Below, piece after piece: positions 10,014 to 26,222 of a stretch of 31,448 bases of DNA. Both the position numbers and the translations under genes were made by a program. Source of the stretch: a virus; IMG/VR virus record IMGVR_UViG_3300008113_004141, positions 1-31,448 of that record; one strand, written 5' to 3'. The notes beneath the pieces were generated by a model. That model saw only the letters and a list, made by a program, of their open reading frames with translations, made no database searches and was not told the origin of the DNA. Each line of letters starts with the position of its first letter. Position 1 is the stretch's first letter.

Positions 10014-10283
10014 ATGAGCAAGTATCGTAGCATTATTGAAGAACTCAATCAAATATCTATTGATAGAGATCGTAATCATGTAGTTGAGAATCGCGGCGAA
10101 CATGTCATTCGTAGTGCTATTAATCTCATCGAGCAGATGGAGCGTCATTACGATGCTGAAACTGCTAAGGATCTTACCAATAGACTGATCAACAGTATTA
10201 AAGGTAAAGACAGCACAAAATTTTCCCGCGGCATTAAAAAAATTATAAAAGAGAGCCAGGGGAACGACGATGCGTCTGTATGA
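10014..10283 (+). CDS. Small conserved-looking helical protein, first gene of the late block
   Basis: An 89 aa mostly helical protein (SKYRSIIEELNQISIDRDRN, then RGEHVIRSAINLIEQM and AKDLTNRLINSI). AGAGGAAA sits 4-11 bases before the ATG. I recall similar proteins in marine T4-like phages but know no function. Driven by a late promoter and followed by an overlapping gene (14 bases), so it opens the late region that carries candidate internal virion proteins. The C-terminal part is basic (KFSRGIKKIIK), compatible with DNA contact. It lacks the N-terminal tag found in several neighbours. Confidence 0.65.
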   Translation: MSKYRSIIEELNQISIDRDRNHVVENRGEHVIRSAINLIEQMERHYDAETAKDLTNRLINSIKGKDSTKFSRGIKKIIKESQGNDDASV

Positions 10284-10875
10284 ACTTCAATCAGACTTTG
10301 ATCTAACTAAAAAATCTAAGAACAAACTATTTCCTAGCGGCCCAACATTTACTTGGGATCCTGCTAAGAAACAATGGCTCAATCCTGACGGCACTCAAGT
10401 AGCCAGAGACGTACACTTTGACCTAATGAAGTCTGTGGGACTTGACCCACAAGGTAATAAAGCAACACCTAGTATGCTTGCTAAGATGAAAGGTGCATGG
10501 GTAAAAAGCGGTGCAGGCATTGATCCTAAAGCTAGTATGCTAGGTAAAGTAATGGGTCGTGTCGGCGGCGCTATTGGCAATGCTATCGGTAAAGCTGTTG
10601 CGCCAGCCGCGCCAGCCGCTCCAGCTGCCCCACCAAAACCAGGTGAAGGATTTACGGCAGATAGAATTGAGCAAGTACGTCCAATGGTAGATCGAGCTAT
10701 TGCAAAAGGCACTATACCAAAAGACGCCACTCAATTAGGTAAAGCACTTGCTAAAAAATATCCAATTCTTTGGAAAAACACAAAGGATAAAAAGGCTGTA
10801 CTTGATGCATTATTGAGTGCTGAACCAACAACAGCCCCTCAACCATCATCTAATCCTTTTAGGGGCGTGACGTAA
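10270..10875 (+). CDS. Putative internal virion protein with glycine-zipper segment and Ala-Pro linker
   Basis: A 201 aa protein. The N-terminus MRLYELQSD loosely fits the tag shared by proteins in this block (M-K/R-hydrophobic-x-E-hydrophobic). Residues 10-90 are basic and carry TFTWDPAKKQWLNPDGTQ. Then comes a small-residue hydrophobic stretch GKVMGRVGGAIGNAIGKA (about 93-110), a glycine-zipper pattern of membrane-active or oligomerising helices, and an (A-P-A) linker PAAPAAPAAPPKPGEG. The C-terminal domain is helical (IEQVRPMVDRAIAKGTIPKD) and ends SNPFRGVT. Function unknown; late expression and neighbours suggest a virion or injected component (inference). Confidence 0.6.
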   Translation: MRLYELQSDFDLTKKSKNKLFPSGPTFTWDPAKKQWLNPDGTQVARDVHFDLMKSVGLDPQGNKATPSMLAKMKGAWVKSGAGIDPKASMLGKVMGRVGGAIGNAIGKAVAPAAPAAPAAPPKPGEGFTADRIEQVRPMVDRAIAKGTIPKDATQLGKALAKKYPILWKNTKDKKAVLDALLSAEPTTAPQPSSNPFRGVT

Positions 10876-10892
10876 TGAAGTTTGCAGATTAA
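10875..10892 (+). other. Five-codon frame MKFAD-stop overlapping the next gene's start
   Basis: ATG AAG TTT GCA GAT TAA begins inside the stop of the preceding gene (TAATG) and encodes MKFAD, the same kind of start as the tagged proteins downstream (MKFTD at 16064 and 18762). The following long frame continues in another phase from TTG 10882. This may be a remnant of a tag lost by frameshift, a programmed shift, or a sequencing error. Confidence 0.4.
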
Positions 10893-12027
10893 AGATTTTG
10901 GCAAGTATTTAAATTGTTTATTATATATGGCAGATATCTATCCTCGCATCACCTTGCGGTTTGAAAACCGTACAATTATACTTAATGGACTTTATCCGTT
11001 CTCCTATCCTGGTAATAAAAGAAAATTTGAAGTTGCGTTTGAGAAATTCGCAGTTTTAGCTGATACTATTACAATTGATGCTAGAGAGCCTTGTTTGTTT
11101 CTAGACAAGCAACGCGAATATAATATTTTTAAATTTTTGCATGATCTAATTGACAAAACTAAATTTAAAAATTCTGTAATTCTTACATCTGTACATTTAC
11201 ACACTGCATCATGCTATGATAAATGGTGTAATGAATTTAACAAAGAAAAAATACTTACTATACAAAACAATAGTTTGATTTATAATATTACTAGATCTGT
11301 CAAAGGCGGCTACTCGTTGGTAGAAACTACTAAGGATAAAACTTTATCATTATTAGTTGGGAATCTACGATTTCAAAAATCTCATGTACTTAAATGGTAT
11401 CTAAATAATATATTTTCAACCAACTACGAAAGTAACGTATTATCTAGTTTTATGATAGATGGCAGATATCAATTACCGCCAGATTTGATAAATTTTAAAG
11501 ATCAGATTAACCAACTTCCAGGAAAATTTTCTGATAATTCTCAGGCAAGAAATTTCACAGCATTGTGGAACAGCACTTATTCAAAGGATAGATTCAATTC
11601 CCAGTTCGCTAGAAGTCTTTTTAATTTTTGTGTAGACTACGTTGAATTTGAAGACTTTCAAGATTACACTCTTTATGAAGATTTTAAAAAACAGCACTTA
11701 TGGTGGGAAGAAGACGTAATCTCAGAAAAGACATTTATGTGCATACTGTTTAAGCAACCATTTATAAGATTAGGCATGCCACATTCTCTTAGGACGCTGC
11801 AAGCCTGGGGATTCCGTACATATGATGGAATACTATTTGACGAAAGCTACGACACTATTGAAAATTTTTATGATAGAGCAGAACATATATTTTCACAAGT
11901 TATGTCCTATTTAGAACAGCCATTTGAATCTGTATATGAAAAAGTGTACTCAACTCATGTGCAAGAAGTTATTAATCACAATTATAACCTGGCAATGGAT
12001 ATCATAAAAAGTGATAAATACTTGTAA
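10882..12027 (+). CDS. Unknown protein with a glycosyltransferase-like C-terminal motif
   Basis: A 381 aa frame. The earliest start is TTG 10882 (MQIKDFGKYL); ATG 10929 (MADIYPRITLRF) is the first ATG, so the N-terminus is uncertain. Most of the protein matches nothing I can name. The C-terminal section, ISEKTFMCILFKQPFIRLGM and then SLRTLQAWGFRTYDG, FDESYD, resembles a motif seen in phage and algal-virus proteins related to GT-B glycosyltransferases, where an EKT...P segment binds the sugar nucleotide. That is weak evidence. It is more AT-rich than its neighbours by eye, hinting at separate acquisition. The last codons contain the next late promoter. Confidence 0.6.
   Translation: MQIKDFGKYLNCLLYMADIYPRITLRFENRTIILNGLYPFSYPGNKRKFEVAFEKFAVLADTITIDAREPCLFLDKQREYNIFKFLHDLIDKTKFKNSVILTSVHLHTASCYDKWCNEFNKEKILTIQNNSLIYNITRSVKGGYSLVETTKDKTLSLLVGNLRFQKSHVLKWYLNNIFSTNYESNVLSSFMIDGRYQLPPDLINFKDQINQLPGKFSDNSQARNFTALWNSTYSKDRFNSQFARSLFNFCVDYVEFEDFQDYTLYEDFKKQHLWWEEDVISEKTFMCILFKQPFIRLGMPHSLRTLQAWGFRTYDGILFDESYDTIENFYDRAEHIFSQVMSYLEQPFESVYEKVYSTHVQEVINHNYNLAMDIIKSDKYL
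12013..12020 (+). promoter_or_regulatory. Late-type promoter GATAAATA
   Basis: AAAAAGTGATAAATACTTGTAA, with the GATAAATA core inside the last codons of the upstream gene (Ser-Asp-Lys-Tyr-Leu). It lies 25 bases before ATG 12046, the ligase-like gene. Confidence 0.7.
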
Positions 12028-12045
12028 TTAACAACAGAGATAGAT

Positions 12046-13317
12046 ATGCGCTTTATAGAAATTTCCAAACCTCTAGTAACAACTATTATTAGCGAAAGCC
12101 TCTTTGAATCTAAAGAAGGCAAGAATACTCACCTTGAGCATCTAGAAGATAACATCTTTAATAAAGGATTTGCTGGTGCTAAGGAAGCAGTAAACTATCT
12201 TTATAGCTTGCACGAAATGCTAGAAGGTCACGCTAAAGCACCTGTAAGCATTACTACTAAGTGGGATGGAGCGCCGGCCGTAGTTGCTGGTCGCGACCCT
12301 GCTACTGGTAAGTTCTTTGTGGGTACTAAAGGTGTGTTTGCACAAGATCCAAAGATGAACTTTAGTGTTGCAGATATTAAAAATAATCATCCAGCAGAAG
12401 GTTTACAAGAAAAACTAATTGCTGCACTAAAACACCTTAGCAAGCTACAGTGGAACACAGTGGCACAGGGCGATTTGCTTTTTACCAAAGGCGACATTAA
12501 GAGTGCAACCATTGACGGTGAAAACTACATTGTGTTTAAGCCCAATACAATTACATACGCAGTACCAGCTGACAGTGACTTAGCAAAACAAATGCTGTCC
12601 GCAGAGATTGGTATTGTGTTTCATACAGAATATGCAGGCGGCCCTACCTTAGCTGATACAACTGCTAAGTTTGGTTTTGACAGTGGCAGTTTAGGCACTA
12701 CACCTAGTGTGTGGTATAGGGACGCAACAATTAAAGATCTAAGTGGTACAGTTACACTTACTAATGCCGAAAGTGCTGACATTATGGGTGCCATTAGCGA
12801 AGCTGACAACTATTTAAAAGGCATTGATGCAGAAACGTTTACGTGGTTAGAGCGCGGCACTGACGTTATTGGTAAGGATTTTGTGCAACAACTTAAAGCA
12901 CATGTCAACAATCAAGTGCGTCAAGGTGCGTTTGATGAACCCACCAAGTTTGCTCAAGGCTTTGTAGAAAAATATATTAACTACATGACCAAGACTATTG
13001 ACAAATACAAGACTCCGGCCAAGCAAGATGAGGCTCGTGAAAAAATGGTACAAGGTGTGAAGTTCATTAAAGAACATGTACCTCAGATTGTATCAGTATA
13101 TGACTTATATTTAAAGATCATTGAAGCTAAGGTTAAACTGTTAAGCAAACTGTCAACAATCAGTCAAATTCCTACATTCATTGAAACTGAAAATGGGTAT
13201 GCAGTAACAGGCGAAGAGGGCTTTGTTGCTGTTGACCGTTTAGGTAATGCCCTAAAACTTGTTGACCGTTTAGAGTTTAGTAGATTAAACTTTGGCAGCG
13301 GCAAACCCGGAGCCTAA
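12046..13317 (+). CDS. Ligase-like nucleotidyltransferase (KWDG motif), putative packaged protein
   Basis: A 423 aa protein. Residues 68-79 hold TTKWDGAPAVVA, with Lys72-x-Asp-Gly as in motif I of the DNA/RNA ligase and capping superfamily, where the lysine is adenylated. GKFFVGTKGVF follows where motif Ia would be; EIGIVFHTEYAGG and the YIVFKPNTITYAV strand are candidates for later motifs. From memory this matches an uncharacterised family of marine T4-like phages (possibly DUF6267). The C-terminal half is helical. The start MRFIEISKPLVTTIISESLF resembles the capsid-targeting tag of neighbours and contains an I-S-E site. Whether it seals nucleic acid is untested. It has its own late promoter. 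Confidence 0.65.
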   Translation: MRFIEISKPLVTTIISESLFESKEGKNTHLEHLEDNIFNKGFAGAKEAVNYLYSLHEMLEGHAKAPVSITTKWDGAPAVVAGRDPATGKFFVGTKGVFAQDPKMNFSVADIKNNHPAEGLQEKLIAALKHLSKLQWNTVAQGDLLFTKGDIKSATIDGENYIVFKPNTITYAVPADSDLAKQMLSAEIGIVFHTEYAGGPTLADTTAKFGFDSGSLGTTPSVWYRDATIKDLSGTVTLTNAESADIMGAISEADNYLKGIDAETFTWLERGTDVIGKDFVQQLKAHVNNQVRQGAFDEPTKFAQGFVEKYINYMTKTIDKYKTPAKQDEAREKMVQGVKFIKEHVPQIVSVYDLYLKIIEAKVKLLSKLSTISQIPTFIETENGYAVTGEEGFVAVDRLGNALKLVDRLEFSRLNFGSGKPGA

Positions 13318-13318
13318 A

Positions 13319-14122
13319 ATGGACCTAGAGTTTATCGGCACAGAGCTTTGCGAAAGTAGACTATATAGAACCACACGAAATTTTAGCAAGTTCAATGGCA
13401 GAGATGTTGCTGATTTACTGTATCTAAATACTATAGCTGCTTTTATGATGACCAAAGATGAAATACAACGAGACTATGCGATTGCGTACTTGTCTAAAAC
13501 AACGCAATACGGTAACTATACATTGTTTAGGACCCATGCAACTGACTTATACTTGTTAGCATATCAAGCGTCGCACCCTAAAAACAAAGCAATTGATCTA
13601 GAAGATAGTTTAATCAGCGACAGATTTTTAGAAGGTTTAACCTTTGATCATAGAGATCACTGGAGATTTTTACGTGAAGTTATTAGTGCTAATGGTGGAT
13701 CAACTGGCAGAGCAACGTCTTATTTTTATCGTTTAGAACAACAGTTAAAGATAAGTCGACCTAGATTTAAACAGCTAAGACGCTTAATACTAGATTGGGC
13801 AAACTTAAAATATATTCAGCGACAGCTAGTAGTTGCTACACTAGCACATGAGCTTAGAGCAAAAGGCATAGGTAGTGAGTTATTAGCCCCTATCAATACT
13901 ATGCTCAAATACAGAGATTTTCGTGTTAGTGATGAAACTGAGGAATTACCTAGCTTAAGCACTAAACTTGCTGGAGCAGCAGTTGGTGCCGCCGCTGGCA
14001 GAGCTATTGGCAGTAAGGTAGCTACTTCATTGGGCAAAGATGAAGATAAATATAAAAAAGCAGGCACAGGTATTGGTGCTATTGCGGGCTACTGGGCAGC
14101 AGGTAGAAGAAGACAACGATGA
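13319..14122 (+). CDS. Hypothetical protein with C-terminal glycine-zipper and basic tail
   Basis: A 267 aa protein; ATG 13319 follows the upstream TAA by one base, and the in-frame ATG at 13292 would overlap. The N-terminus MDLEFIGTELCESRLY contains an L-C-E site but not the canonical tag. Residues 20-200 are helical and charged. The C-terminus has a small-residue repeat LAGAAVGAAAGRAIGS, then GTGIGAIAGYWAAGRRRQR. Such glycine-zipper helices occur in membrane-inserting and pore-forming phage ejection proteins. Function unknown. It overlaps the next gene by four bases. A GATAAATA word inside it (14045-14052) may give a secondary promoter. Confidence 0.6.
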   Translation: MDLEFIGTELCESRLYRTTRNFSKFNGRDVADLLYLNTIAAFMMTKDEIQRDYAIAYLSKTTQYGNYTLFRTHATDLYLLAYQASHPKNKAIDLEDSLISDRFLEGLTFDHRDHWRFLREVISANGGSTGRATSYFYRLEQQLKISRPRFKQLRRLILDWANLKYIQRQLVVATLAHELRAKGIGSELLAPINTMLKYRDFRVSDETEELPSLSTKLAGAAVGAAAGRAIGSKVATSLGKDEDKYKKAGTGIGAIAGYWAAGRRRQR

Positions 14123-14625
14123 AAATTAACGAAATCATTGTAGAAGCTATAGATCAAAAAGACGCTAACGAAGTATATAATGCGTTGATTGCTGATGGCG
14201 ATCATCTAACAGCAAAATATTTTCAGCAAACAAGAAACAGCCCGAAGTACAGTAATATTGACAGCGCAATGCGAGCAGCAGAACGTATGGCTTCTTCAGA
14301 AGAAAGAAAGAAGGCTGCACAACAAAAAACATCAACTGCTGCAACAGCCAAAGCTCAACCAACAATTGACAAGCCAACTGTAGCACCTAAACAGTCAACT
14401 CGCGATCCCGAAGATTACAGTGATAACTTTTACGGTAATCGATATACTGGTAGTTTGGGAAGAGGTGCTAGTTTAGGTGATGTTGATTTAGACATTGATT
14501 TCGATCAAACAGGTTTAAAAACTATAGGTAAAACAATAGGCGCTGCAAAAGCAGCCGCTAAACCCTTTAGTAATTTAGCTACAGCGTTTAAAGCAGGTAT
14601 GAACAAGGCCCCCGGTAAACGCTAA
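14119..14625 (+). CDS. Putative internal head protein with capsid-targeting-like tag
   Basis: A 168 aa protein starting MKINEIIVEAIDQKDANEVY. The first ten residues closely resemble the start of T4 IPIII as I recall it (MKTYQEFIAEA): same length, E at position 5, and an I-V-E-A site where the prohead protease would cut. After it come a helical region, a Lys/Ala/Thr/Gln-rich low-complexity linker (70-105), YSDNFYGNRYTGSLGRG, an acidic patch DVDLDIDFD and a basic Ala-rich C-terminus. The final composition fits a small soluble internal protein. It overlaps the upstream gene by four bases. Targeting and cleavage are inference. Confidence 0.6.
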   Translation: MKINEIIVEAIDQKDANEVYNALIADGDHLTAKYFQQTRNSPKYSNIDSAMRAAERMASSEERKKAAQQKTSTAATAKAQPTIDKPTVAPKQSTRDPEDYSDNFYGNRYTGSLGRGASLGDVDLDIDFDQTGLKTIGKTIGAAKAAAKPFSNLATAFKAGMNKAPGKR

Positions 14626-14639
14626 AAACATAAAAATTT

Positions 14640-14647
14640 GATAAATA
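14640..14647 (+). promoter_or_regulatory. Late-type promoter GATAAATA
   Basis: GATAAATA 43 bases before ATG 14691, giving a leader long enough for a 5-bp hairpin (GCTGT-AGAA-ACAGC, 14656-14669) and a strong Shine-Dalgarno AGGAG at 14680-14684. Confidence 0.7.
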
Positions 14648-14655
14648 AAGTTATA

Positions 14656-14669
14656 GCTGTAGAAACAGC
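14656..14669 (+). promoter_or_regulatory. 5' leader hairpin
   Basis: GCTGT (14656-14660), loop AGAA, ACAGC (14665-14669): a perfect 5-bp stem near the 5' end of the leader of the 14691 gene. It may stabilise the mRNA. Short stems like this can arise by chance. Confidence 0.35.
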
Positions 14670-14690
14670 AAAATAAATTAGGAGAATAAC

Positions 14691-15017: not shown

Positions 15018-15035
15018 TAAGTCTTATAAGCTTAT

Positions 15036-15068
15036 GAAAAAGCCCTCGCTAGTCGGGGGCTTTTTTTT
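15036..15068 (+). terminator. Rho-independent terminator
   Basis: GCCCTCG (15042-15048), loop CTAGT, CGGGGGC (15054-15060): a 7-bp stem with one G-U pair, preceded by AAAAA and followed by eight T. The flanking A and T runs extend the stem. It ends the transcript of the 108 aa gene. Confidence 0.92.
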
Positions 15069-15103
15069 GGTTACAATTTATCAAACTATAAAACTTGAGT
15101 TTA

Positions 15104-15111
15104 GATAAATA
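15104..15111 (+). promoter_or_regulatory. Late-type promoter GATAAATA
   Basis: GATAAATA 21 bases before ATG 15133, just after the terminator, with Shine-Dalgarno AGGAG at 15122-15126. Confidence 0.7.
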
Positions 15112-15132
15112 GTATAAAGACAGGAGATACAC

Positions 15133-15540: not shown

Positions 15541-15782
15541 TGGCAGACAAAGAACCACAACCTAAGCCTCAAGTGTACTTGGAGTCGGGCAACTTGGAAG
15601 CACATATCATTGCAGATATGTTGCGAATTGAAAATATCACCACCGAACTTAGCGAGTTCAAAGTTGACACTAAAGAAAGACTTAACAAGTTAGAAAACTG
15701 GATTATTGGTATTGTTGCAATTACAGTGACTACTCTACTCAGTGTACTATCTGCAATTGTTATTAATGCATTGAGCACATAA
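15540..15782 (+). CDS. XhlA-like coiled-coil membrane protein, holin-associated candidate
   Basis: An 80 aa protein: a hydrophilic N-terminus (ADKEPQPKPQ), an amphipathic helix (LRIENITTELSEFKVDTKERLNKLEN, seen in parts at about 28-53), then one C-terminal transmembrane helix WIIGIVAITVTTLLSVLSAI (about 54-76). This layout matches the haemolysin XhlA type family, small membrane proteins near holins that help lysis. Here the neighbours are virion and cargo genes, so it could instead be a virion membrane component. The ATG overlaps the upstream TAA (TAATG), as does its own stop with the next start. Confidence 0.6.
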   Translation: MADKEPQPKPQVYLESGNLEAHIIADMLRIENITTELSEFKVDTKERLNKLENWIIGIVAITVTTLLSVLSAIVINALST

Positions 15783-16054
15783 TGTTAATTGAAGAAATTG
15801 AAACTGTTACTGAAGCAAGAATGGTTTGGCGCAAGATAGGCAGCGCCGTTAAGCGTGGTGTCCGTTGCGTCGGAGGCCGTCGAAATGGTCGCGTTGTTAG
15901 TAATGCAGGTCAATGCAGTGCGCCACTGGATATGAAGAAACGTTTAACGTTGAAACGTACTCAATCTAAGATGGGCAAAAGAATGAACTTAAAAGCTCGT
16001 AGAACTAAGCGTATGAATCCTACCAGCAAGCGTGTAGCAAAACTAAACAAGTAA
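15782..16054 (+). CDS. Very basic internal-head-like protein with targeting tag
   Basis: A 90 aa protein with N-terminus MLIEEIETVTEARMVW, resembling the capsid-targeting tag (acidic, E at 4-5, V-T-E-A cut site at 9-12). The remainder is extremely rich in Arg and Lys: RKIGSAVKRGVRCVGGRRNG, Cys29 and Cys44, then KRTQSKMGKRMNLKARRTKR and NPTSKRVAKLNK. From memory, marine T4-like phages encode similar Lys/Arg-rich proteins with R-x-V-x-(x)-P/A-x-x-C and NP-x-S-(K/R)-R. It likely binds packaged DNA. Removing the acidic tag on maturation would leave a nearly pure polycation. Confidence 0.65.
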   Translation: MLIEEIETVTEARMVWRKIGSAVKRGVRCVGGRRNGRVVSNAGQCSAPLDMKKRLTLKRTQSKMGKRMNLKARRTKRMNPTSKRVAKLNK

Positions 16055-16063
16055 GAGATAATA

Positions 16064-18760
16064 ATGAAATTTACTGATGTTAGAACAATTAAAACGTTGA
16101 TAAAAGAATATGGTATGGACAGCGGTTCAGCTACTTACGGTTCTAACAAAAGTGTGATGGCACCTAGCTCCAGTCCTAGTCAAAAGACATCATCTAGCCC
16201 TACAACTAAAAAGACGCCCCAGAGTCCCTCAACAACAGGTGCAATTAAAAAAGACACACCAAAGATTTTAGCAGTTAGAGCAAGTGATGTTCCTGCTGAC
16301 GCAGTTGTAAAAGATATTAAAGACAAGCCGATGGGCAAGGTAGTAAGCAGAGTAGGTGATAAACCTAAAGCAGATGCGCTAGTAGTTGATACTGGTAAAA
16401 TGGGCAAGCAACAATATCAAGTGCTTGACAAAAATCAAAAAGTATTCATCGATAATCCAGAATATCAAGAAGAAGGCTCTGCTGCAAAATTAATTTCTAA
16501 GCTAAAAATTAAAAATAAAAAAGTTCGTTCTATTAAAAAGATATTACGCAACAGCGAAGGCAACGAACAAAATGAAACTGTTAATGCAGGAAACGGATCC
16601 ATGAAAGAAAGCATTTTCGCACAATTTGATAAGTTGTCACTAGAAGAACAGCTAACAATTCTAGAGCGTGTAGACAGCACCAAGCTTGACGAAGCATGGA
16701 GCAAAAAATACAAAGATAGCATTAACTGCTCTAATCCAAAAGGCTTCAGTCAAGAAGCTCATTGTGATGGGAAGAAGAAAAATGAAGATGTTGATGTAGA
16801 TGAAAATCTAAAGCAATGGTTCAAAGACAAGTGGGTTCGTTTTGGGCCCGACGGCAAGATTAAAGGCGACTGTGCTAGAGGCAATGACAGCGAAGGTAAG
16901 CCTAAGTGCTTACCACAAAGCAAAGCGCACGCACTAGGCAAGGATGGGCGTGCTAGTGCTGCTCGTCGCAAACGCAGAGAAGATCCAAATCCAGAGCGTA
17001 AAGGCGCAGCAAAAAATGTTGCTACCAAGAAGGAAAGTGTAACAGAGCAAGTTAATTTTCCAAGCAATGTTGTTGATTATTTAAAGACTAAAGGATATAA
17101 AGGTCCATACAAATTAAAACAATTGAAAGCATGGACAAATGAACTAGAAGATTTTGAAAGTATTGATCTAGACAATGACATTATGGTTCAAGGTAACAAT
17201 GTTCAGTTTGATGGTTGGGTAGTACGTCTTAGTGATGGTGAATTTTTAGCCGGATCTGAAGGTTATGCATCACCTGTTTCAGTAAAGCAATTATTAAGAC
17301 TGGAAGAAAAGCAAGACGCTTGCTATCACAAAGTTAAGAGTCGATATAAAGTATGGCCTAGTGCATATGCATCGGGCGCACTGGTTCAGTGCCGTAAAAA
17401 AGGCGCAAAGAACTGGGGCAATAGCAAAAAAGAAAGTGTGGCAGAAAGTGCTGTACCCGATAATCGTAAAGTTAGAATCCTAAACAAAATTATGTCTAAG
17501 CCACTTCTAGCCAGCGACCTAGGTGCTCAAATGGAAGCATTCTTTGCTATACCAGATCCAAGAATGGTTAACGAATTCCGCAAACAACGTGCAATAGCAG
17601 GCGATGATATTGACCTACGCCCGGTAGTAAAAGGCTTCATCGGAAATGTGCTACACCCGGATGTACAAAAGCAAGTTAATGTTAGCGAAAGCGTAATTAA
17701 CGAATATGATGACTTAGGCAAAGAAAAGCAAACTATTATTAAAACAGTTAGTGGTTTAGATGCGGCAGATAAGGAACAAGCTTCTATACTAGATCGAATT
17801 TATAAGATTCTAAACAGCGGTCAAATTTCTTCTAATATTGATGTTGCGTTTACTAAACCACTAGTAGATGAAAATTTGCCCGAAGCTGAAAAAGCTAATG
17901 TTCGAAGAGATATGACTAGAATTATTTCGAGCTTAGAACAAGATTATGGTTCAATGAAAAGGTTTTTAGATAGACTCGAACAAGCAGGCGGCGTAGTTAA
18001 TATTGCAGAGCTGTCTAAACCTCTAAATACTTTTGAAAAAGTTTTTGGCGATGATGCTGCTATAGCAGCATTTATTACCCTAGCTAACTACGGTGTAGGT
18101 AAGAAGCAAAAAGGCCCGGGCGAATATGCACTAGCATGTTTAAGCAATCAAATTAAATTAGCCGAAGGCGAAGGCGACTTACAGATCAACGGTATTGGCA
18201 AGACAGAACTTAAAGCAGCATTAAGCAGTGCTGGCGGACGTATTGGTTACGGCGGCGGCTCACAAAAAGCAAAACGTGCAGCGATTGAAAAATATGCACA
18301 ATATCTTCCAACTGTGTTAGCTAGATTAAATGCGGGCAGCGGCGGAAGTATTAGTATTCGTCCGTTCATTGACGCATTGAACACAGACCTACCAACAAAT
18401 AACCCAGAAAATGTTAAAGTTCGTAAAGCACTTATGAGTGAGCTATTAACAATGGATCTTGAAAAGTTTGCTGCACCTGTAGTGGACAAATTTGCAACCA
18501 GTACGAACTTTGATGAAATCGAAACTGAATACTTAATACAAAACTTTGCATGGTATAAGGACCGCGACGACTTTGATGCTCTACTGCTGATTCATGTACC
18601 AAATCGTAAAACAGCAATGATTCGTAACGCTGAAGATTTAATTGCGTTTAGAAACAGCGGTCACGCCAATGCAACCAGTATCAGTATTGTGCCAACACAA
18701 GCAGGTGCCGGCCGCGAGCAGTGGGCACAGTTAACTCTTAATAAAGCAAAAGCAGGTTAA
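16064..18760 (+). CDS. 898 aa multi-domain virion polyprotein candidate with PD-(D/E)XK-like nuclease domain
   Basis: N-terminus MKFTDVRTIKTLIKEYG is of the tag type. Residues 25-60 are Ser/Pro/Thr/Lys low complexity. Short Cys modules follow: SINCSNPKGFSQEAHCDGKK (Cys222), GDCARG...PKCLPQSKA (Cys270, Cys282) with a basic RRKRREDPNPERKG tract, and DACYHKVKSRYKVWPSAYAS (Cys420). Similar modules recur in marine-phage proteins (recalled). Hydrophobic-x-Glu sites lie between modules: LDE210, VTE328, VAE461, INE547. The C-terminal part has GPGEYALA (Glu687), GDLQINGIGKTELKAA (Asp705, Glu715-x-Lys717) and GGRIG, the layout of PD-(D/E)XK nucleases. I infer a capsid cargo protein cut into modules by the prohead protease. 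No such cleavage is shown by the sequence itself. Confidence 0.6.
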   Translation: MKFTDVRTIKTLIKEYGMDSGSATYGSNKSVMAPSSSPSQKTSSSPTTKKTPQSPSTTGAIKKDTPKILAVRASDVPADAVVKDIKDKPMGKVVSRVGDKPKADALVVDTGKMGKQQYQVLDKNQKVFIDNPEYQEEGSAAKLISKLKIKNKKVRSIKKILRNSEGNEQNETVNAGNGSMKESIFAQFDKLSLEEQLTILERVDSTKLDEAWSKKYKDSINCSNPKGFSQEAHCDGKKKNEDVDVDENLKQWFKDKWVRFGPDGKIKGDCARGNDSEGKPKCLPQSKAHALGKDGRASAARRKRREDPNPERKGAAKNVATKKESVTEQVNFPSNVVDYLKTKGYKGPYKLKQLKAWTNELEDFESIDLDNDIMVQGNNVQFDGWVVRLSDGEFLAGSEGYASPVSVKQLLRLEEKQDACYHKVKSRYKVWPSAYASGALVQCRKKGAKNWGNSKKESVAESAVPDNRKVRILNKIMSKPLLASDLGAQMEAFFAIPDPRMVNEFRKQRAIAGDDIDLRPVVKGFIGNVLHPDVQKQVNVSESVINEYDDLGKEKQTIIKTVSGLDAADKEQASILDRIYKILNSGQISSNIDVAFTKPLVDENLPEAEKANVRRDMTRIISSLEQDYGSMKRFLDRLEQAGGVVNIAELSKPLNTFEKVFGDDAAIAAFITLANYGVGKKQKGPGEYALACLSNQIKLAEGEGDLQINGIGKTELKAALSSAGGRIGYGGGSQKAKRAAIEKYAQYLPTVLARLNAGSGGSISIRPFIDALNTDLPTNNPENVKVRKALMSELLTMDLEKFAAPVVDKFATSTNFDEIETEYLIQNFAWYKDRDDFDALLLIHVPNRKTAMIRNAEDLIAFRNSGHANATSISIVPTQAGAGREQWAQLTLNKAKAG

Positions 18761-18761: not shown

Positions 18762-19328
18762 ATGAAATTTACTGATTTACATGAAGGTTCAAAGCCAGCT
18801 TCAATACTAAGTATCGGTAACAGACCGTGGCTAGTTCGCGAACAACTATCCTACGAGCTTGACGACTTAGAACCTGTGCTCAGTGAAGATGCGTTGAAGT
18901 ATCATTATAACAAACTGCACAAAGGTTATGTGGAAAAATATAATGCCAGTGAAGGCGACCCTGATTTTAATGAAGCAGGCGCATTTTTACATAATGTATT
19001 ATTTCCTCAGTTTAAGAAACCAGTAAGCGGTAGTAGACCTCATGGTATTTCATCAAGTTTGATCATGGCACACTTTGAGAGTTTTGAAAACTTCAAAGAT
19101 AAGTTCAAAGAAGTTGCAATGGGCGTACAAGGCAGCGGTTGGGTTTACCTAAGTAAAAAAGGCGAAATCAAAACTATTGTTAATCACGAAATTAAAAACG
19201 ATATAGCACTACTAGTTGATTGGTGGGAACATGCTTGGGTACTAGACTACCAGCATGATAAAGGCAAGTATTTAGATAATATTTGGCGCATCATCGATTG
19301 GGAAGTTGTTAACGCAAGGTTAGTATAA
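18762..19328 (+). CDS. Fe/Mn superoxide dismutase family protein with packaging-like N-terminal tag
   Basis: The 188 aa protein matches Fe/Mn SOD along its length: LSYELDDLEPVLSEDALKYH, YNKLHKGYVEKYN, then SFENFKDKF, GVQGSGWVYL, LVDWWEHAWVLDYQ and DNIWRIIDWEVVNARL. Metal ligands by alignment are His48, His77, Asp153 and His157; Tyr56 is also kept. Around His77 the motif is AGAFLHN, one residue shorter than the usual AGG/AAQ-x-x-NH. The second-sphere Gln site seems to be His142. Where bacterial SODs begin at Ser/Tyr-Glu-Leu, this one adds 29 residues starting MKFTDLHEGSK, with an L-H-E-G cleavage-like site. It would convert superoxide to oxygen and peroxide; packaging in the virion is inference. 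Confidence 0.85.
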   Translation: MKFTDLHEGSKPASILSIGNRPWLVREQLSYELDDLEPVLSEDALKYHYNKLHKGYVEKYNASEGDPDFNEAGAFLHNVLFPQFKKPVSGSRPHGISSSLIMAHFESFENFKDKFKEVAMGVQGSGWVYLSKKGEIKTIVNHEIKNDIALLVDWWEHAWVLDYQHDKGKYLDNIWRIIDWEVVNARLV

Positions 19329-22048
19329 TGAGATTTATAGACTTACAAGAAGGTCCTAACGACCCCGGAATTTTTAAAGCTATTTTCTTAGCTGGCGGCC
19401 CTGGTAGCGGTAAAGGCTATGTAGCGCAGCAGTTAGGGTTGCAAGCCCGCGGTTTAAAAGTAGTTAACAGCGATGATGCTTTTGAATACCTAATGCGTAA
19501 GCGCAAATTAAGTTTTGAGATGCCGCCCGAAGAACAACCTGATCGTGATGTTGCCCGACAACGTGCCAAAGATCTTACTAATAAAAGGCAAGATATATAT
19601 TTAGATGGTCGCCTAGGCATTATCATTGATGGCACTGCTAAAGACCCTAACAAGATGGCTAAACTAAAAGCAGAGCTAGAAGCGATTGGTTATCAGACTA
19701 TGATGGTGTTTGTGAACACTAGCCTGCGTACAGCACTACAGCGTAACTTGTTACGTGATAGAAAAGTTCCTACAGATATTGTTACACAATCTCATAAGCA
19801 AGTACAAACTAACAAAGATACGTTGTCTAACGTATTTGCCCCTAACTATGTTGAAGTTAACAATGATGACAACGCTAATTTTAACGAACCACTGAAACGT
19901 GTGGAAAAGTTTATTGATGCCCCAGTTACAGCACAAGCCCGTGACTGGATCAGTAAAGCATCAGTACAAAAAAGTATAGCACAAGAAGATGTACAGAGCA
20001 AGCCAAAAGTTTATGTAGACATGGACGGGGTGCTTGCAAACTTTTACGCCGGTGTTACTAGAGTAACAGGACACGAAGAACCACGTGATATGGCGTTACA
20101 AGACATTGAAGATACAATGGCATCTTTTAAAGGTACAGACTTCTTTTACAGGTTACCTAAGTACGAACAAACCGATCAACTTATTGCAATGGTTAATGCT
20201 GCTACAAAAGGAGATTGGTATATTCTCAGCTCACCTTTAAAGTATGACAGAGAAGGTAGTGCAAAATATAAAGCAGCATGGATTCGTGATAAACTAAAGA
20301 TTCAACCTAAAGACATGTACTTCCAGAGTGATAAAGCACAGTTTGCTACACAGCCCGACGGTACTCCGAATATTCTTATTGATGACTATCCAAAATATTT
20401 AAACAGTTGGAAAGACAAAGGCGGCATTGGTGTACAGTACAAAGGTCATGCAGGTAACATTGAAGATGTTAAAGCAACACTAGATCAGTACTTCTCGAAA
20501 AAAAAAGTAGCTGAAGCACTGGATAGTTCATATCCATATAAAAATAGTAAGCGAAATCCCGGTAATGCTTTTTACTTTGATACAGAAGATGGTCAAGAGT
20601 ATAAGGTTGAATTTGATAGCGTCTTTGCAGGTGATGTTAGGGTTGCGTTTGCTGCAAGAGGTCAAGGTGACGAACATAAGATTGGTCTCACCGGTACTGG
20701 TGACAGTCGAAAAATATTTGGTACAGTTATTAAAATTGTAAAAGATTATGTCAGAAAAGCTCAGCCAGAGGCAGTATCATTCAGTGCTAATAATAGTGAA
20801 CCAAGCAGAGTAAGACTTTACAAGATGCTTGCCTCTCAAGCAGATAAAGAATTACCTAACTATAAATTTGCTGATGCATTCAGCAACGGTGGATTCACGA
20901 CATATTATCTTACAAGGGATGGTGCTAAAATTCCAACATCAACTAAAGTAAAAGCTAAAGCAGGCAAAGTATTAGACAAAGTATTTGATTCACAACAACC
21001 TAAAATCCATACAAGCAAGATTGGTGAAACTATTCTAACAGAAGAACAATTAGTTGAAGGGTTTTTAGACAGCGCCAAAGACTATTTAGGAAACGCTTAT
21101 ACCCAAACTGTTGCGGACATAAAAACAAACATTGTAGATTTAAAGCAAGCGGGTATTGTGATCAAAGATGTGTTAACCGATCCGCAGCAAACAGCGATTG
21201 TTAATGCACAGCTAGGCAAACAAATTAATATGATTGTTAAACAAATGATCAGCAGTGCCAATGTTGCTGTAGCACCTATGGTTAAATTTATTCAACAGAA
21301 TATTTTACCCGTAGTTCGAGTTGATGGCATTAAAGGATTTTTAGGAAGACTTGGGGTATACGGGGTGCTGAAATATGTGTCAACACAACTATCTAAACTT
21401 ACTGACGTTGCTAAAAATGAACTTCTAGGATTAATGGCTGATATTGTAAAGCAGGTCAGTAGTGCTGCACTAACAATGTCGGCTTTTATGGGGATATTTG
21501 ATAATGTAGCTAGTGTTAAAAAATATTTTCTAGATGTATTATCATATATTAAATCAAAAATAATGTCAGTACAGATTAGAAGACCCACTGAGTCAGTTCA
21601 AATTGACGAATTAGCTGATAAACCATATAGCTACTCGCAAAACGTAAAGACACCTGATAAACGTGCATACCGCTTTCAAACAGATGCTGGACAGTTATAC
21701 AGAGTACAAGTGTTCAATCGCAGAAAAGACGATGCTAATAAATTAGAAATACACTTTGATTTAACTAACATGAAAACTGGACAGCCCAACTCGGGCGTAA
21801 CAGGCACAGGTGATGCTGTTCGTGTGTTTAGCACTGTTGCAAACATCCTACAGCAAGAAGTAGCTGATCAAGATCCAACAGGTATTATTATCGCTAGTAA
21901 AGCAGATGATGAGAGTAGAGTAAAACTATATAGAACCCTTGCACGCCGTGCAGCAAAGACTATGTCAGGATTTGAAATTTCCGGTGAGCGCACTGTAACA
22001 GGCGGAGACGGCAATCCTTATATTACTATTGAGTTAACCAAGCAATGA
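19328..22048 (+). CDS. 906 aa kinase + HAD phosphatase fusion with duplicated C-terminal domains, cargo polyprotein candidate
   Basis: Tag MRFIDLQEGP with an L-Q-E-G site. Residues 17-195: P-loop kinase, IFLAGGPGSGKGYVA (Walker A 23-30), VNSDD, then IIIDGTAKDP and QRNLLRDRKVPTDIV, recalling T4 Pnk or zeta-toxin kinases. Residues 228-385: HAD domain, KVYVDMDGVLANF (Asp231, Asp233), WYILSSPLKYDREG and ILIDDYPKYLNSW, resembling 5'(3')-nucleotidases. Residues about 400-520 and 765-880 are two copies of one domain (YxFxTxxGQxYxV ... GxTGTGD ... SRVxLYxxLAxxA). Between them is a long helical, partly hydrophobic region (578-750). Cleavage-like sites VAE396, LVE577 and IDE761 precede domain starts. 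Kinase-then-phosphatase order is that of T4 Pnk, so nucleic-acid end repair is one hypothesis. Confidence 0.75.
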   Translation: MRFIDLQEGPNDPGIFKAIFLAGGPGSGKGYVAQQLGLQARGLKVVNSDDAFEYLMRKRKLSFEMPPEEQPDRDVARQRAKDLTNKRQDIYLDGRLGIIIDGTAKDPNKMAKLKAELEAIGYQTMMVFVNTSLRTALQRNLLRDRKVPTDIVTQSHKQVQTNKDTLSNVFAPNYVEVNNDDNANFNEPLKRVEKFIDAPVTAQARDWISKASVQKSIAQEDVQSKPKVYVDMDGVLANFYAGVTRVTGHEEPRDMALQDIEDTMASFKGTDFFYRLPKYEQTDQLIAMVNAATKGDWYILSSPLKYDREGSAKYKAAWIRDKLKIQPKDMYFQSDKAQFATQPDGTPNILIDDYPKYLNSWKDKGGIGVQYKGHAGNIEDVKATLDQYFSKKKVAEALDSSYPYKNSKRNPGNAFYFDTEDGQEYKVEFDSVFAGDVRVAFAARGQGDEHKIGLTGTGDSRKIFGTVIKIVKDYVRKAQPEAVSFSANNSEPSRVRLYKMLASQADKELPNYKFADAFSNGGFTTYYLTRDGAKIPTSTKVKAKAGKVLDKVFDSQQPKIHTSKIGETILTEEQLVEGFLDSAKDYLGNAYTQTVADIKTNIVDLKQAGIVIKDVLTDPQQTAIVNAQLGKQINMIVKQMISSANVAVAPMVKFIQQNILPVVRVDGIKGFLGRLGVYGVLKYVSTQLSKLTDVAKNELLGLMADIVKQVSSAALTMSAFMGIFDNVASVKKYFLDVLSYIKSKIMSVQIRRPTESVQIDELADKPYSYSQNVKTPDKRAYRFQTDAGQLYRVQVFNRRKDDANKLEIHFDLTNMKTGQPNSGVTGTGDAVRVFSTVANILQQEVADQDPTGIIIASKADDESRVKLYRTLARRAAKTMSGFEISGERTVTGGDGNPYITIELTKQ

Positions 22049-23028
22049 AAATAACGGAAGTAGTTGGCGCCCCTATTATTGCCTATCATGGCACAACTGA
22101 CGATATCAGTCAGTTTCGTCCGCTAACTCACTTTGGCACCGAAAAGGCTGCTAGAGACCGTATGGACTACAAGAAGAACGCAAACGGTAAAATCTACAAA
22201 GTTCAGTTGGATATTCGCAATCCATTTACTATTAAAGACTTTCCAGGTATACACTATGATCGTGTATATGCATTTGAATTGCGGGACAAGAAAAAATTAT
22301 CTCAAGAAGACATGGCAGCGATTACTACTTTAGACGACCCTGCCCAGTTACGAGCAGCACTGTTAGCAAAAGTAAAAGAACTGGGCTATGACGGCTTTGT
22401 TTATAAGAATCGCTACGAGGATAAAGGCAACATTAGTTATGTTATCCTTGACCCTAGTCAAGTTAAAGTACTAGAGGTAATTCCAGTAGGCGAAGAAGTA
22501 ACAGAAGATAGCGATGTAGACTACGAAGAACAAATTGAAGACTTTGTACAGTCACTAAATCCAGATGATGTCGGCGTAGAACAAATTGGTCCTTACCATG
22601 TACACTTTGAAGGGTTCACAGACGATTGTCAAGATGATGCAAATAGACGTTGCAATTTACCAGCAAACAATCCACGCTACTTGGCAAGCTACGATGATGT
22701 TTACAAAGAAGTAATTAAGGATTTTGTGAGACGAGAAGGAGGCAAGAAGCCCCTCAAGGTCGGCTTTACAGGTGATGAAGACTACCCTATCATATATGCA
22801 GTTTTTGATAATCCTGAGCCATACAAGAATCCAGATGCTTGGAACCCCACTTTTGAAAACTTTGCCGACGGTAAAGTAAAAGGCAAGAGCCGTCCTGGTC
22901 GTGTAAAACGTGCCGGTGCTAGTTGTGCAGGTTCGGTTACAGATTTGCGAGCAAAGGCTAAAAAGTACAGTGGTGAGAAAGGTAAAATGTATCACTGGTG
23001 TGCTAATATGAAATCGAGTAAAAACTAA
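22045..23028 (+). CDS. ADP-ribosyltransferase-like (ART-PolyVal type) protein, putative injected effector
   Basis: A 327 aa protein with tag-like start MKITEVVGAP. IIAYHGTTDDISQFRPLTHF at 11-30, then GTEKAARDRM, IYKVQLDIRNPF, a GYDGFVYKN turn (114-122) and ISYVILDPSQVKVLEV (130-145) match the ART fold of polyvalent-protein domains: His15-Gly-Thr for NAD+ and a later Tyr/Glu. A linker with V-T-E154 leads to a second domain with Cys195 and Cys203. The C-terminus GRVKRAGASCAGSVTDLRAK then GKMYHWCANMK is a small Cys/His module seen in marine-phage proteins (recalled). T4 Alt, also packaged, ADP-ribosylates host RNA polymerase; a similar role is inference. Catalytic residues are only partly clear. 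Confidence 0.65.
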   Translation: MKITEVVGAPIIAYHGTTDDISQFRPLTHFGTEKAARDRMDYKKNANGKIYKVQLDIRNPFTIKDFPGIHYDRVYAFELRDKKKLSQEDMAAITTLDDPAQLRAALLAKVKELGYDGFVYKNRYEDKGNISYVILDPSQVKVLEVIPVGEEVTEDSDVDYEEQIEDFVQSLNPDDVGVEQIGPYHVHFEGFTDDCQDDANRRCNLPANNPRYLASYDDVYKEVIKDFVRREGGKKPLKVGFTGDEDYPIIYAVFDNPEPYKNPDAWNPTFENFADGKVKGKSRPGRVKRAGASCAGSVTDLRAKAKKYSGEKGKMYHWCANMKSSKN

Positions 23029-23036
23029 GGACACAC

Positions 23037-23786: not shown

Positions 23787-23796
23787 AGGTATAAAC

Positions 23797-23952
23797 ATGG
23801 CGCATCTAAATAATACAGGTTATGGATATTTTGAACACTTGTTGAGGGCATGGAAGATAGCAGGAGTTCTATTAGTACACGGGGTATTACCTAATATTTG
23901 GGAAGATAAAGCAAGTAATTTATTGTGTGAGAAACAACATGAGAATAAGTGA
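23797..23952 (+). CDS. Small DUF6356-like membrane peptide
   Basis: A 51 aa frame, MAHLNNTGYGYFEHLLRAWK then IAGVLLVHGVLPNIWEDKAS. The pattern HLN-x-T/V-G-x-x-Y-x-EH-x-x-x-A-x-x-x-A-G-x-LL-x-HG-x-x-P matches, from memory, the DUF6356 family of short proteins found in bacteria and marine phages. One short hydrophobic segment (residues 19-32) may be membrane associated. AAAGGTATAAAC upstream gives a weak ribosome site. It overlaps the next small gene by 14 bases. Confidence 0.65.
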   Translation: MAHLNNTGYGYFEHLLRAWKIAGVLLVHGVLPNIWEDKASNLLCEKQHENK

Positions 23953-24097
23953 AATTATTAATGAAACTACATCAGGCGGTATAGCCGCAGTAATTCAGCC
24001 GTTGGGTGCTGTAATTAAACGCCCAAATCCCAGCATCTACAAGACTAAAAGGAAGCGTACTCCAAAAAAAGAAAGTACTGATCTTAGTATCAAGTAA
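23939..24097 (+). CDS. Small basic internal-protein candidate with capsid-targeting-like tag
   Basis: A 52 aa frame starting MRISEIINETTSGGIAAVIQ. The first nine residues are among the best tags in the window (E at 5, then I-I-N-E as cleavage site). After removal, about 43 residues remain: a small-residue hydrophobic stretch (GGIAAVIQPLGAVI), then IKRPNPSIYKTKRKRTPKK, strongly basic. This resembles T4 internal proteins in being short, basic and N-terminally tagged. It overlaps the upstream gene by 14 bases, and its final codons contain the promoter-like GTAAATA of the next gene. Confidence 0.65.
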   Translation: MRISEIINETTSGGIAAVIQPLGAVIKRPNPSIYKTKRKRTPKKESTDLSIK

Positions 24098-24100
24098 ATA
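24093..24100 (+). promoter_or_regulatory. Late-promoter-like AGTAAATA, leaderless arrangement
   Basis: AGTAAATA deviates from GATAAATA at the first three positions, but the 17 bases TAAATAGTAGTATGAAC (24095-24111) are identical to 6068-6084 after a better promoter. The ATG follows five bases after the element. Confidence 0.4.
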
Positions 24101-24111
24101 GTAGTATGAAC
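24095..24111 (+). repeat. 17-bp repeat, copy 2 (promoter end + start codon)
   Basis: Identical to 6068-6084. It joins a promoter-like element directly to the ATG of the 132 aa gene. Confidence 0.8.
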
Positions 24112-24504
24112 CTCAATTATGCTAAAAAAGTGAAACTAGCTGCAACTCTGACAGAGGTTGCCAACAATGTGGCACGAACTCCTGTGTTTGTGGTTCTTGC
24201 AAAAGATGGTGCATTTGATATACTTAATTACTATAGCAGAAGCCCTGTGCTAGTTAATATTCCTAGTAAATCATTAGCAACATTTGTATGTGATTCTTTT
24301 AATAAAAATAAATCTAATGCACCGTTTAACTCTATGCAGCAGCATGTTGATGCATACGCAAAGCATTACTATGACTGCGAATTTTATAAAAATACTATTC
24401 GAAACACTAAAGATAGCTTTAAACGAGCAGTTACCATAACTAGATTAGATATCTCAATTGAGTATCTAAAACAAGCAGCATCATACATTCGTAAAAGTTG
24501 TTAA
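24106..24504 (+). CDS. Hypothetical helical protein, 132 aa
   Basis: A soluble, mostly helical protein (MNLNYAKKVKLAATLTEVAN..., later FNSMQQHVDAYAKHYYDCEF and IEYLKQAASYIRKSC at the end), net basic, with three scattered cysteines. No family is recognised. The ATG has no Shine-Dalgarno and sits five bases after a late-promoter-like element, sharing that arrangement exactly with the gene at 6079. It precedes the late promoter of the 441 aa structural gene. Confidence 0.6.
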   Translation: MNLNYAKKVKLAATLTEVANNVARTPVFVVLAKDGAFDILNYYSRSPVLVNIPSKSLATFVCDSFNKNKSNAPFNSMQQHVDAYAKHYYDCEFYKNTIRNTKDSFKRAVTITRLDISIEYLKQAASYIRKSC

Positions 24505-24521
24505 TTAAAAATCTAAAAAGT

Positions 24522-24529
24522 GATAAATA
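24522..24529 (+). promoter_or_regulatory. Late-type promoter GATAAATA
   Basis: CTAAAAAGTGATAAATAACT, the same extended motif as at 9979 and 12013, 33 bases before ATG 24563. The leader holds CGTTAGCGAGAACAA, similar to the leader at 28136. Confidence 0.72.
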
Positions 24530-24562
24530 ACTGTAATTACTTAACCGTTAGCGAGAACAACT

Positions 24563-25888
24563 ATGTTTTTAAAAGAATTCAACACAAGCCCAGCCACTAA
24601 GGTAGCCAAGATCAACAAGGTGCTACAGGAACAGTTTGGTATCACAGTAAAGACTAATTTCCCTTCTAAAAAGAAGTTGAAAAAAGTGCTTGAAAATACC
24701 AATATGGCACTAATCAAACTTCGCGGCACTAATAGAAAGTTTCAGTTAGATCCAGACTATGCTAAGTTCTTAGGCATCAAGGATGTTGTAGAAACTATGC
24801 TTGAAGAAGGTATGTATGCTAAGTCTCCTGTACACGAAGCTATGTGCGAGATGATTAGGGAAACAGTTCATAACTTAATGGACAGCGGCTATACAATGGA
24901 CGAAGCTAGCAGCGAATGCATGAACCGTTATAGAATGGACGATCGTTTTGCATATGATGATGAATATGTAATGCCTATTGTTATTACCGCAGCTAAAGAA
25001 TATATGGAGCAGTATAACATGGGAGAAGATCTAGCAGGCGGCGCAATGGGTGCTACTATCGGCAACACTATTACCGGTATGCCTTCCCACAATGAGTTAA
25101 GTTCAAGGAACGTAGCAGAGCAGGTTCTACGTGTTCTTGCTAAAGAAGCAGGCGTAGACTTGGTTACTGCATCAAGCTATGACGCAATTGAAGAAAAGTT
25201 GAATAGTTTTGCTAAGGTCAGCGGCAAGAGTCGCGACGCAGTAGTAGGCTTTTTAAACGGCCTAGACGAAGCTGCATTACTAGCTGGCATTCAAATGTTT
25301 GGTCGTAAGATTGGCGAAGCAAACTCATTTGTTGACGCAAGACGCAAAGCAATTGCAGCAGGCGAAAAAGAGTTTGAAGTAGGCGGCAAAACTTTCAAAG
25401 TAACTGGCGATACTTCAGATGAAAAGAAAGCAACTAAAGAAAGCATGTTCGATGATATCCTCAACGATATTATCAACGAAGAAGTTGACGTTGAGCAAGC
25501 AGAAGTTGTAATGGCAGTTCGCGCACTAGCTGATGATGTACAAGATCAGATTGAACGCATTGGTCGCATGATGAACGAAGACGTTCCTGCAATCGCTGAC
25601 AAGATGCGCGGCGAAATGGGCGCACAAGCAGCACAGAGTTTTGTTGATAGTGTAAACAGTTTACTATCCACCCACTTAGAAGCAACTAAGGGTGTTAAGG
25701 CAGGACTTGACAGTGCAGTTGGGTCAATGACTGGCGAAGAAATGGTTGGCGGCCTAGGCGACACTGGTGAATTAGGCACCGGCGGATTAGCTGAACCAGA
25801 TATGCCAGAAGAAGAGCCTGCTATGGACATTAACGAACCAGCAGCAGCAGGCCCAGAGGACGAGCCGTTAGGTAGAGCAGAAGTATAA
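24563..25888 (+). CDS. Large acidic virion or internal head protein
   Basis: A 441 aa protein. N-terminus MFLKEFNTSPATKVAKI loosely fits the tag type (E at 5). A basic helical domain (1-75) is followed by helical regions, a Gly-rich stretch (GGAMGATIGNTITG), then KESMFDDILNDIINEEVDVE (about 293-312), whose I-I-N-E site looks like an internal cleavage site. A coiled-coil-like region follows (VRALADDVQDQIERIGRMMN), and the tail is very acidic (EPDMPEEEPAMDINEPAAAG). Similar proteins are abundant virion components in marine T4-like phages as far as I recall. A role in head assembly or scaffolding fits the acidic helical nature. It is driven by its own late promoter. Confidence 0.6.
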   Translation: MFLKEFNTSPATKVAKINKVLQEQFGITVKTNFPSKKKLKKVLENTNMALIKLRGTNRKFQLDPDYAKFLGIKDVVETMLEEGMYAKSPVHEAMCEMIRETVHNLMDSGYTMDEASSECMNRYRMDDRFAYDDEYVMPIVITAAKEYMEQYNMGEDLAGGAMGATIGNTITGMPSHNELSSRNVAEQVLRVLAKEAGVDLVTASSYDAIEEKLNSFAKVSGKSRDAVVGFLNGLDEAALLAGIQMFGRKIGEANSFVDARRKAIAAGEKEFEVGGKTFKVTGDTSDEKKATKESMFDDILNDIINEEVDVEQAEVVMAVRALADDVQDQIERIGRMMNEDVPAIADKMRGEMGAQAAQSFVDSVNSLLSTHLEATKGVKAGLDSAVGSMTGEEMVGGLGDTGELGTGGLAEPDMPEEEPAMDINEPAAAGPEDEPLGRAEV

Positions 25889-25889
25889 G

Positions 25890-26222
25890 ATGTTAATTCG
25901 CGATATCGTTCTTAGAGAAGGATACTACAGCGATTTAATTGTTGCTGTGCAAGACCTTATGTCTCGCTATATGTCTAAAGGCATCAAAGAAATTAATACC
26001 GAAAAATTTAAAAGTTTATTAGCAAAGCAGGGTTATGTCACGTCAACAGATGAAATCATTCAAGCTGTTGATCAAAGCGGATTTGCTAGTAGCGTAGATG
26101 CAGAGAAGATTGTTCCAAAAGGTGAACTTCCTGCGGACATGAATACAGACGCAGAACAGACACGTGATGTAGGTGCTATGGCTGGCGATCAAGCCATGCA
26201 AGATATTAAGGCGGATCTGTAA
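25890..26222 (+). CDS. Small acidic internal-protein candidate with tag
   Basis: A 110 aa protein starting MLIRDIVLREGYYSDLIVAV; the first eleven residues match the tag type with an L-R-E-G cleavage-like site. The body is helical (LMSRYMSKGIKEINTEKFKS, then YVTSTDEIIQAVDQSG) and the C-terminus acidic (PADMNTDAEQTRDVG...). From memory small proteins of this kind sit next to the 441 aa protein type in marine T4-like phages. It starts one base after the upstream stop and overlaps the next ATG by one base (TAATG). Confidence 0.6.
   Translation: MLIRDIVLREGYYSDLIVAVQDLMSRYMSKGIKEINTEKFKSLLAKQGYVTSTDEIIQAVDQSGFASSVDAEKIVPKGELPADMNTDAEQTRDVGAMAGDQAMQDIKADL

Follow-up and report, generated by a model that had tools for sequence, protein, structure and literature searches.

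The virus record IMGVR_UViG_3300008113_004141 is a fragment of an uncultured virus of 31,448 bases, the whole of which we refer to as the window. Of its 42 genes, 20 form a block (window 10270-25890; the other 22 are outside it) in which unrelated proteins, among them a superoxide dismutase (SOD), a kinase-phosphatase and an ADP-ribosyltransferase (ART), begin with short, related N-terminal leaders. These leaders are very likely capsid-targeting propeptides of the kind used by phage T4. Protein comparison aligns window positions 1403 to 31311 with gp266 to gp242 of the jumbo phage PA5oct (Arenbergviridae), and the window from about 5074 onward with gp74 to gp30 of Agrobacterium phage Atu_ph07. 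The synteny holds gene by gene and includes leaders, and all three share the order primase, helicase, leader block, exonuclease and tail-side genes; the kinase-phosphatase was not detected in the PA5oct regions examined, and no SOD was seen within the region examined in Atu_ph07. A comparable block lies downstream of the helicase in the marine phages HTVC008M and Melnitz. The nearest large relative of the window is a 104-kb contig, G002. Four genes of the window block, named here like all others by their first position, have no leader (14691, 15133, 15540 and 23037), and 23037 encodes a 2-oxoglutarate-oxygenase-like protein. The block of G002 also holds a radical-SAM-like gene (100495-101400, locus L129; CNLSCRGC). 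Gene starts on IMG/VR contigs were called in this analysis.

Table 1 Leaders and associated domains in the window block. A slash marks the putative cut site.
Position	Strand	Feature	Remark
10270..10287	+	Leader head MRLYEL, no clear cleavage site; basic protein of 201 amino acids (aa)	
12046..12096	+	Leader MRFIEISKPLVTTIISE/S of DUF6267 protein; second site LFE/S at residue 21	
12097..13317	+	DUF6267 body, invariant KWDG (K72 W73 D74 G75)	Pfam E=1e-103
13319..13354	+	Leader MDLEFIGTELCE/SRLYR	Corrected start of open reading frame 13292-14122
14119..14145	+	Leader MKINEIIVE/A, basic 168-aa protein	Site in 8/8 distinct leaders
15782..15814	+	Leader MLIEEIETVTE/A, strongly basic peptide	Mature 79 aa, isoelectric point (pI) 12.0, net +25
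16064..16108	+	Leader MKFTDVRTIKTLIKE/YG, 898-aa protein with basic Cys-containing modules	Site 11/11
18762..18785	+	Leader MKFTDLHE/G of SOD	
18786..19328	+	Fe/Mn SOD body	Pfam E=5e-23
19328..19351	+	Leader MRFIDLQE/G of kinase-phosphatase	Site 9/9 distinct leaders
19352..22048	+	Zeta-toxin/AAA_33-like P-loop kinase, 5'(3')-deoxyribonucleotidase and DUF6934-type region	
22045..22062	+	Leader head MKITEV on ART, no conserved cleavage site	
22066..22480	+	ART domain (ART-PolyVal), residues 8-141	Pfam E=8e-13
22855..23025	+	Basic C-terminal module ENFADGKVKGKSRPGRVKRAGASC...MYHWCANMK, common to unrelated viral proteins	
23939..23965	+	Leader MRISEIINE/T, 52-aa basic protein (mature 43 aa, net +8)	
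24563..24631	+	Leader MFLKEF...VLQE/QFG, acidic 441-aa protein	
25890..25919	+	Leader MLIRDIVLRE/G, 110-aa protein	Site in 15/16 (one Gln at P1)

An earlier note on this DNA, made from the sequence alone, had singled out nine N-termini as related leaders of 8-12 residues on unrelated bodies. Each of the nine was found in place, the Pfam assignments of the bodies do differ, and we extend the set with 13319, 24563 and 10270. The leaders of 12046 and 16064 are longer than the note gave. The likeness of the N-termini also exceeds what chance would produce. Over residues 2-9, the mean pairwise BLOSUM62 score is -2.45 among the 20 block genes versus -6.88 outside the block (label shuffle, p=0.0006). 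The same test points in the same direction in G002 (p=0.004) and Melnitz (p=0.02) and is not significant for the block of HTVC008M (p=0.30).

A nine-position profile, trained solely on SOD leaders of other, distant phages, gave the ten highest scores among the 42 window genes to block genes, namely SOD and nine more. Across five genomes, 12 of 83 block genes score at least 5, compared with 5 of 512 others (p=9e-8). The profile also picks out T4 gp24, IPII and IPIII, the latter two with moderate scores. A strict pattern of a leader followed by hydrophobic-x-Glu and a small residue matches 15/76 block genes versus 5/486 other genes when four genomes are pooled. The head motif M-[KRLFQY]-x-x-[ED]-[FILVM], which was written after the data were viewed, occurs in 12 of the 20 block genes, in none of the 22 elsewhere in the window and in 5 of 576 background genes. 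Two of the ten genes with the highest profile scores, 10014 (RSIIE/ELNQ) and 24106 (LTE/V), are not counted as tagged because their Glu seems to belong to the body or lacks conservation. Leader-bearing genes also occur beyond the block: MKITNIVE/G at 40932-41963 of G005, a contig that shares 92-98% identity with the window, and MKIYDILE/G at 29430-30341 of a further relative, G001. On freshwater contigs, the YNFIK leader was found in the flanks of SOD on no gene other than SOD itself.

To examine the junction between leader and body, we gathered orthologues of eight families from IMG/VR. In 134 of 148 distinct leaders, the last residues before the conserved body are hydrophobic-x-Glu, while the leader sequence and often its length (8-23 aa across the set) vary. 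Most of the remaining 14 are cases in which the pattern misplaced the junction, and true loss of the site was seen once, in the 25890 family (MLINEVISQ/G, with Gln at P1). The motif is present in 32/32 distinct leaders of the 13319 family and, as hydrophobic-x-E/[ATGS] at lengths of 11-14, in 18/18 of the 15782 family. Among SOD homologues it is found in 40 of 45 distinct leaders, where shuffling yields a mean of 10.5 and a maximum of 21. In the DUF6267 family, whose leaders vary from about 17 to 22 residues, Met1 and Glu17 are the sole invariant columns among the first 25 (20 orthologues). The leaders of the kinase homologues read MIPFILKE/G in HTVC008M, MKTFAELQE/G in Melnitz and MKSFKDFVSLDE/A in coliphage RB43. 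The RB43 homologue, ORF241c (locus L336, 2983-3816), lies near hoc and inh, the inhibitor of gp21, and adjoins a nucleotidase-like gene. The relatives of 10270 open with MRLYEL, MRLYEF, MRIDEL or MRLDEL, and the neighbour in G002 reads MRLHEIENINE/APLD.

The gene for gp21, the T4-type prohead protease (PF03420), which the earlier note expected to be located elsewhere in the genome, is encoded by G002, PA5oct, Atu_ph07 and HTVC008M. In G002, gp23 and gp22 bear the same type of site as the leaders: gp23 has RYLSE/AATAGA, seemingly at the position where T4 gp23 is cut, and gp22 begins MAVTFNDLLE/G.

A second shared element, newly recognised in this work, lies at the other end of the ART. Its C-terminal basic module also occurs on many unrelated proteins of uncultured viruses (loci L229-L308). 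A protein related to the 22045 query is encoded in at least 594 stretches; in the 80 that were kept, best-segment identity is 47-97%, mostly above 80% across the last 57 residues. A Pfam search assigned the module to no family (one sub-threshold match, to OAR), and it had no match in 50,697 records of cultured phages. We selected 52 proteins with complete N-termini by the module alone. The head motif is found on 43 of these versus 5/576 in the background, a contrast whose p-value is indicative at most since the 52 do not represent independent lineages and the motif was set after viewing. Hydrophobic-x-Glu falls within the first 20 residues of 33/52 versus 94/374. The bodies between the two ends include P-loop kinase, HAD-type nucleotidases and cytidylyltransferase, and in some proteins the leader is joined directly to the module, for a total of 66 aa (L239, L283, L307). 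Several module-bearing genes stand in tandem on the 210-kb contig G016 (26830-31281), whereas G018 and G013 hold only three or four, so that the cargo load varies. Of the seven contigs longer than 150 kb that carry the module, five encode gp21.

Some of these proteins have counterparts reported in virions of relatives. In the PA5oct record, the note 'ESI-MS/MS' (mass spectrometry, MS) is attached to orthologues of 14691, 15133, SOD, 24563 and 25890. The SOD is gp223, with the leader MNDSIKKYISIAE/A; the orthologue of 25890 is gp246, with MKIKDILVE/S, and that of 24563 is gp247 (E=1e-22). Orthologues of 26222 and 28153, just downstream of the block, are flagged as well. The PA5oct counterpart of 10014, gp259, bears the name virion structural protein but no MS note. 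Among cyanophages, MS detection of a virion cytidylyltransferase is reported for S-SZBM1 (PMC9146016) and S-CREM2 (PMC10665884). These proteins begin MRFRQFIIE/A and MKNFSSFLTE/A, respectively. In S-CREM2, MS also detected the leader-bearing gp155 and gp136 as well as gp160, a relative of 16064 (E=2e-23) (PMC10665884). No title or abstract opening among the literature matches found refers to a SOD in phage virions.

Several observations weigh against a set of packaged, processed cargo proteins. A clear cleavage site is missing in 22045 and 10270, and PF03420 was not found in the 31-kb window, itself a fragment. The ribonucleotide reductase and thymidylate synthase of PA5oct carry the same MS note as the proteins above, so contamination is possible, and the authors of the S-CREM2 study voice the same caution (PMC10665884). 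The DUF6267 protein of S-SZBM1 lacks a leader and does not figure in the list of 30 proteins (PMC9146016). Across three phages, leaders are only weakly enriched in the MS-detected proteins: 6/71 versus 4/184 with the strict pattern (p=0.03), p=0.19 with a looser one, and in PA5oct alone the SOD-leader profile does not separate detected from undetected proteins (p=0.68). So small a difference is what one would expect if tail and shell components make up most of the virion proteins.

The SOD leader is an extension that E. coli FeSOD lacks, its alignment beginning at query residue 29; in the structure model of the window SOD, residues 1-12 are disordered and the core has a predicted local distance difference test score (pLDDT) mostly over 90. 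The protein matches the Fe/Mn SOD family in fold and in its four metal ligands (His, His, Asp, His), and these ligands, H48, H77, D153 and H157, are invariant in 25 homologues. The DUF6267 protein was considered as an RNA/DNA ligase on account of its invariant KWDG, but its model has a pLDDT of 67 and gave no significant fold or sequence match; a literature search found DUF6267 in no paper. The product of 24563-25888 (pI 4.5) contains 16 hydrophobic-x-Glu sites and resembles a T4 core or scaffold protein of the kind that gets chopped up. A PADLOC run returned a single marginal match, on the kinase. On many contigs (L029, L031, L035, L043 and others), the SOD start codon is preceded, at a distance of a few bases, by TAAATA, a sequence like the -10 box of T4 late promoters, which would make late mRNAs almost leaderless. 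A late-promoter motif, TATAAATA, shows no enrichment across the window, with 1 match where 3.65 were expected.

Taken together, these data make it very likely that an enlarged enzyme cargo is tagged with capsid-targeting propeptides of the T4 type. Judged from sequence, about ten unrelated proteins, including the SOD and the ART, are tagged in this way, and the phage probably carries and injects ready-made enzymes. The head M-[KR]-x-x-[ED]-hydrophobic would draw each protein to the scaffolding core of the prohead, where a gp21-family protease would cut after hydrophobic-x-Glu. The matured enzymes and basic peptides would then remain in the head beside the DNA and enter the host with it. Packaging, cleavage and injection in the window phage are proposed, injection by analogy with the internal proteins (IPs) and Alt of T4, which are ejected (PMC9026906). 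The first ten residues of T4 IPIII suffice for packaging, and targeting and cutting use different residues (PMC9026906); such a split would explain members like 22045, in which the head is kept without the cut site. T4 IPs block GmrSD enzymes (PMC12373910). In the window phage, the ART may modify host proteins, as Alt does, and the SOD may counter superoxide early in infection or within the virion. The kinase-phosphatase might serve end repair, perhaps with DUF6267 as a possible ligase of unproven fold, and the basic peptides may hold DNA.

The proposal of the earlier note, that these are leaders of the IPI-III and Alt type cut by gp21, is supported in part: the leaders look like removable propeptides whose hydrophobic-x-Glu junction is conserved, gp21 is encoded in the lineage, and several orthologues or near relatives are reported in virions. 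It does not extend in full to 22045 (MKITEVVGA), which keeps the head and has no conserved site. As in T4, short propeptides with a hydrophobic-x-Glu site precede unrelated bodies, a gp21-family protease is encoded (here in relatives), an ART is among the cargoes and some cargoes are small and basic. Unlike in T4, the set is larger, with SOD, kinase-phosphatase and DUF6267, and its genes form one block downstream of the replicative helicase. The leaders open M[KR]xx[ED]h, in contrast to MKTYQEF of T4, which they resemble only loosely; they may or may not share the targeting residues of T4 IPIII (positions 4 and 7). The cytidylyltransferase gene of S-SZBM1 occupies the same slot, after the helicase and beside a DUF6267 gene. 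Cytidylyltransferases or NMNAT-like proteins have been detected by MS in virions of S-SZBM1, S-CREM2 and S-SCSM1, with a matching leader type in the two that were checked, S-SZBM1 and S-CREM2. The available parts of these papers report virion presence and mention neither a leader nor a gp21 site. Unlike these cyanophages, the window has no cytidylyltransferase. In the giant phages phiKZ and SPN3US, ejection proteins matured by a prohead protease are head proteins that are cut after Glu and packed with DNA. Propeptides of SPN3US are mostly long, however (111-254 aa, with two of 20-24; PMC10052503), so the likeness does not extend to the window leaders of 8-23 aa.

Among other explanations, the one that survives best accepts capsid-targeting propeptides and has the proteins serve head assembly or DNA condensation instead of acting as injected effectors. 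The basic peptides 15782 and 23939 and the acidic, multi-site 24563, so like a T4 core protein, would suit such a role; the SOD with all its metal ligands, the kinase-phosphatase and the ART are enzymes with no obvious part in assembly, and we regard this account as unlikely for the set. It is improbable that the leaders direct proteins to another place (tail or baseplate, replication compartment, membrane) and that the Glu is structural. The missing site in some tagged proteins would fit, yet the P1 Glu is kept despite varying leader length, G002 encodes the gp21 protease along with gp23 and gp22 bearing the same type of site, and the phage-nucleus genes are reportedly missing from MIJ3, which is closely related to PA5oct (PMC6892783). 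Chance likeness from base composition and start-codon context is hardly credible: the original nine were chosen by eye, but the tests covered the whole block, four genomes, a profile trained elsewhere and proteins chosen by their tail.

Beyond capsid-targeting propeptides as such, we tentatively consider a modular cargo format, for which the odds appear roughly balanced or slightly adverse, in uncultured T4-type and jumbo phages. Enzyme bodies that differ from case to case would be combined with an N-terminal propeptide and with basic Cys/His modules that can be used repeatedly (ENFADGKVKGKSRPGRVKRAGASC...MYHWCANMK, together with CYHKVK and KYKRSINC modules). In this way a phage could load nearly every kind of enzyme, a functional SOD among them, into its head and deliver it at infection. 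Binding of packaged DNA is one possible role of the basic module; release as a peptide by a cut at its own Glu is another. In Atu_ph07, gp53-gp62 (L111 24485-35593, a range that includes gp63) are ten tandem ART-like proteins with a YRG motif, homology being judged by eye. They start M[KR]W.QL.E or MKWNDLNE (also MRWEQLTE and MKWHQLTE), and gp63 starts MRLFQLLE; the ten are a possible arsenal of injected ARTs.

A rule based on these leaders makes it possible to recognise injected proteins from sequence in phages that resist cultivation, far outside the T-even phages of its earlier use. Virion proteins so far labelled 'hypothetical' and genes taken to be metabolic (SOD, cytidylyltransferase, nucleotidase, kinase) become candidate enzymes of the first minute of infection, before phage genes are expressed, and a direct experiment becomes possible in a cultured relative, PA5oct.

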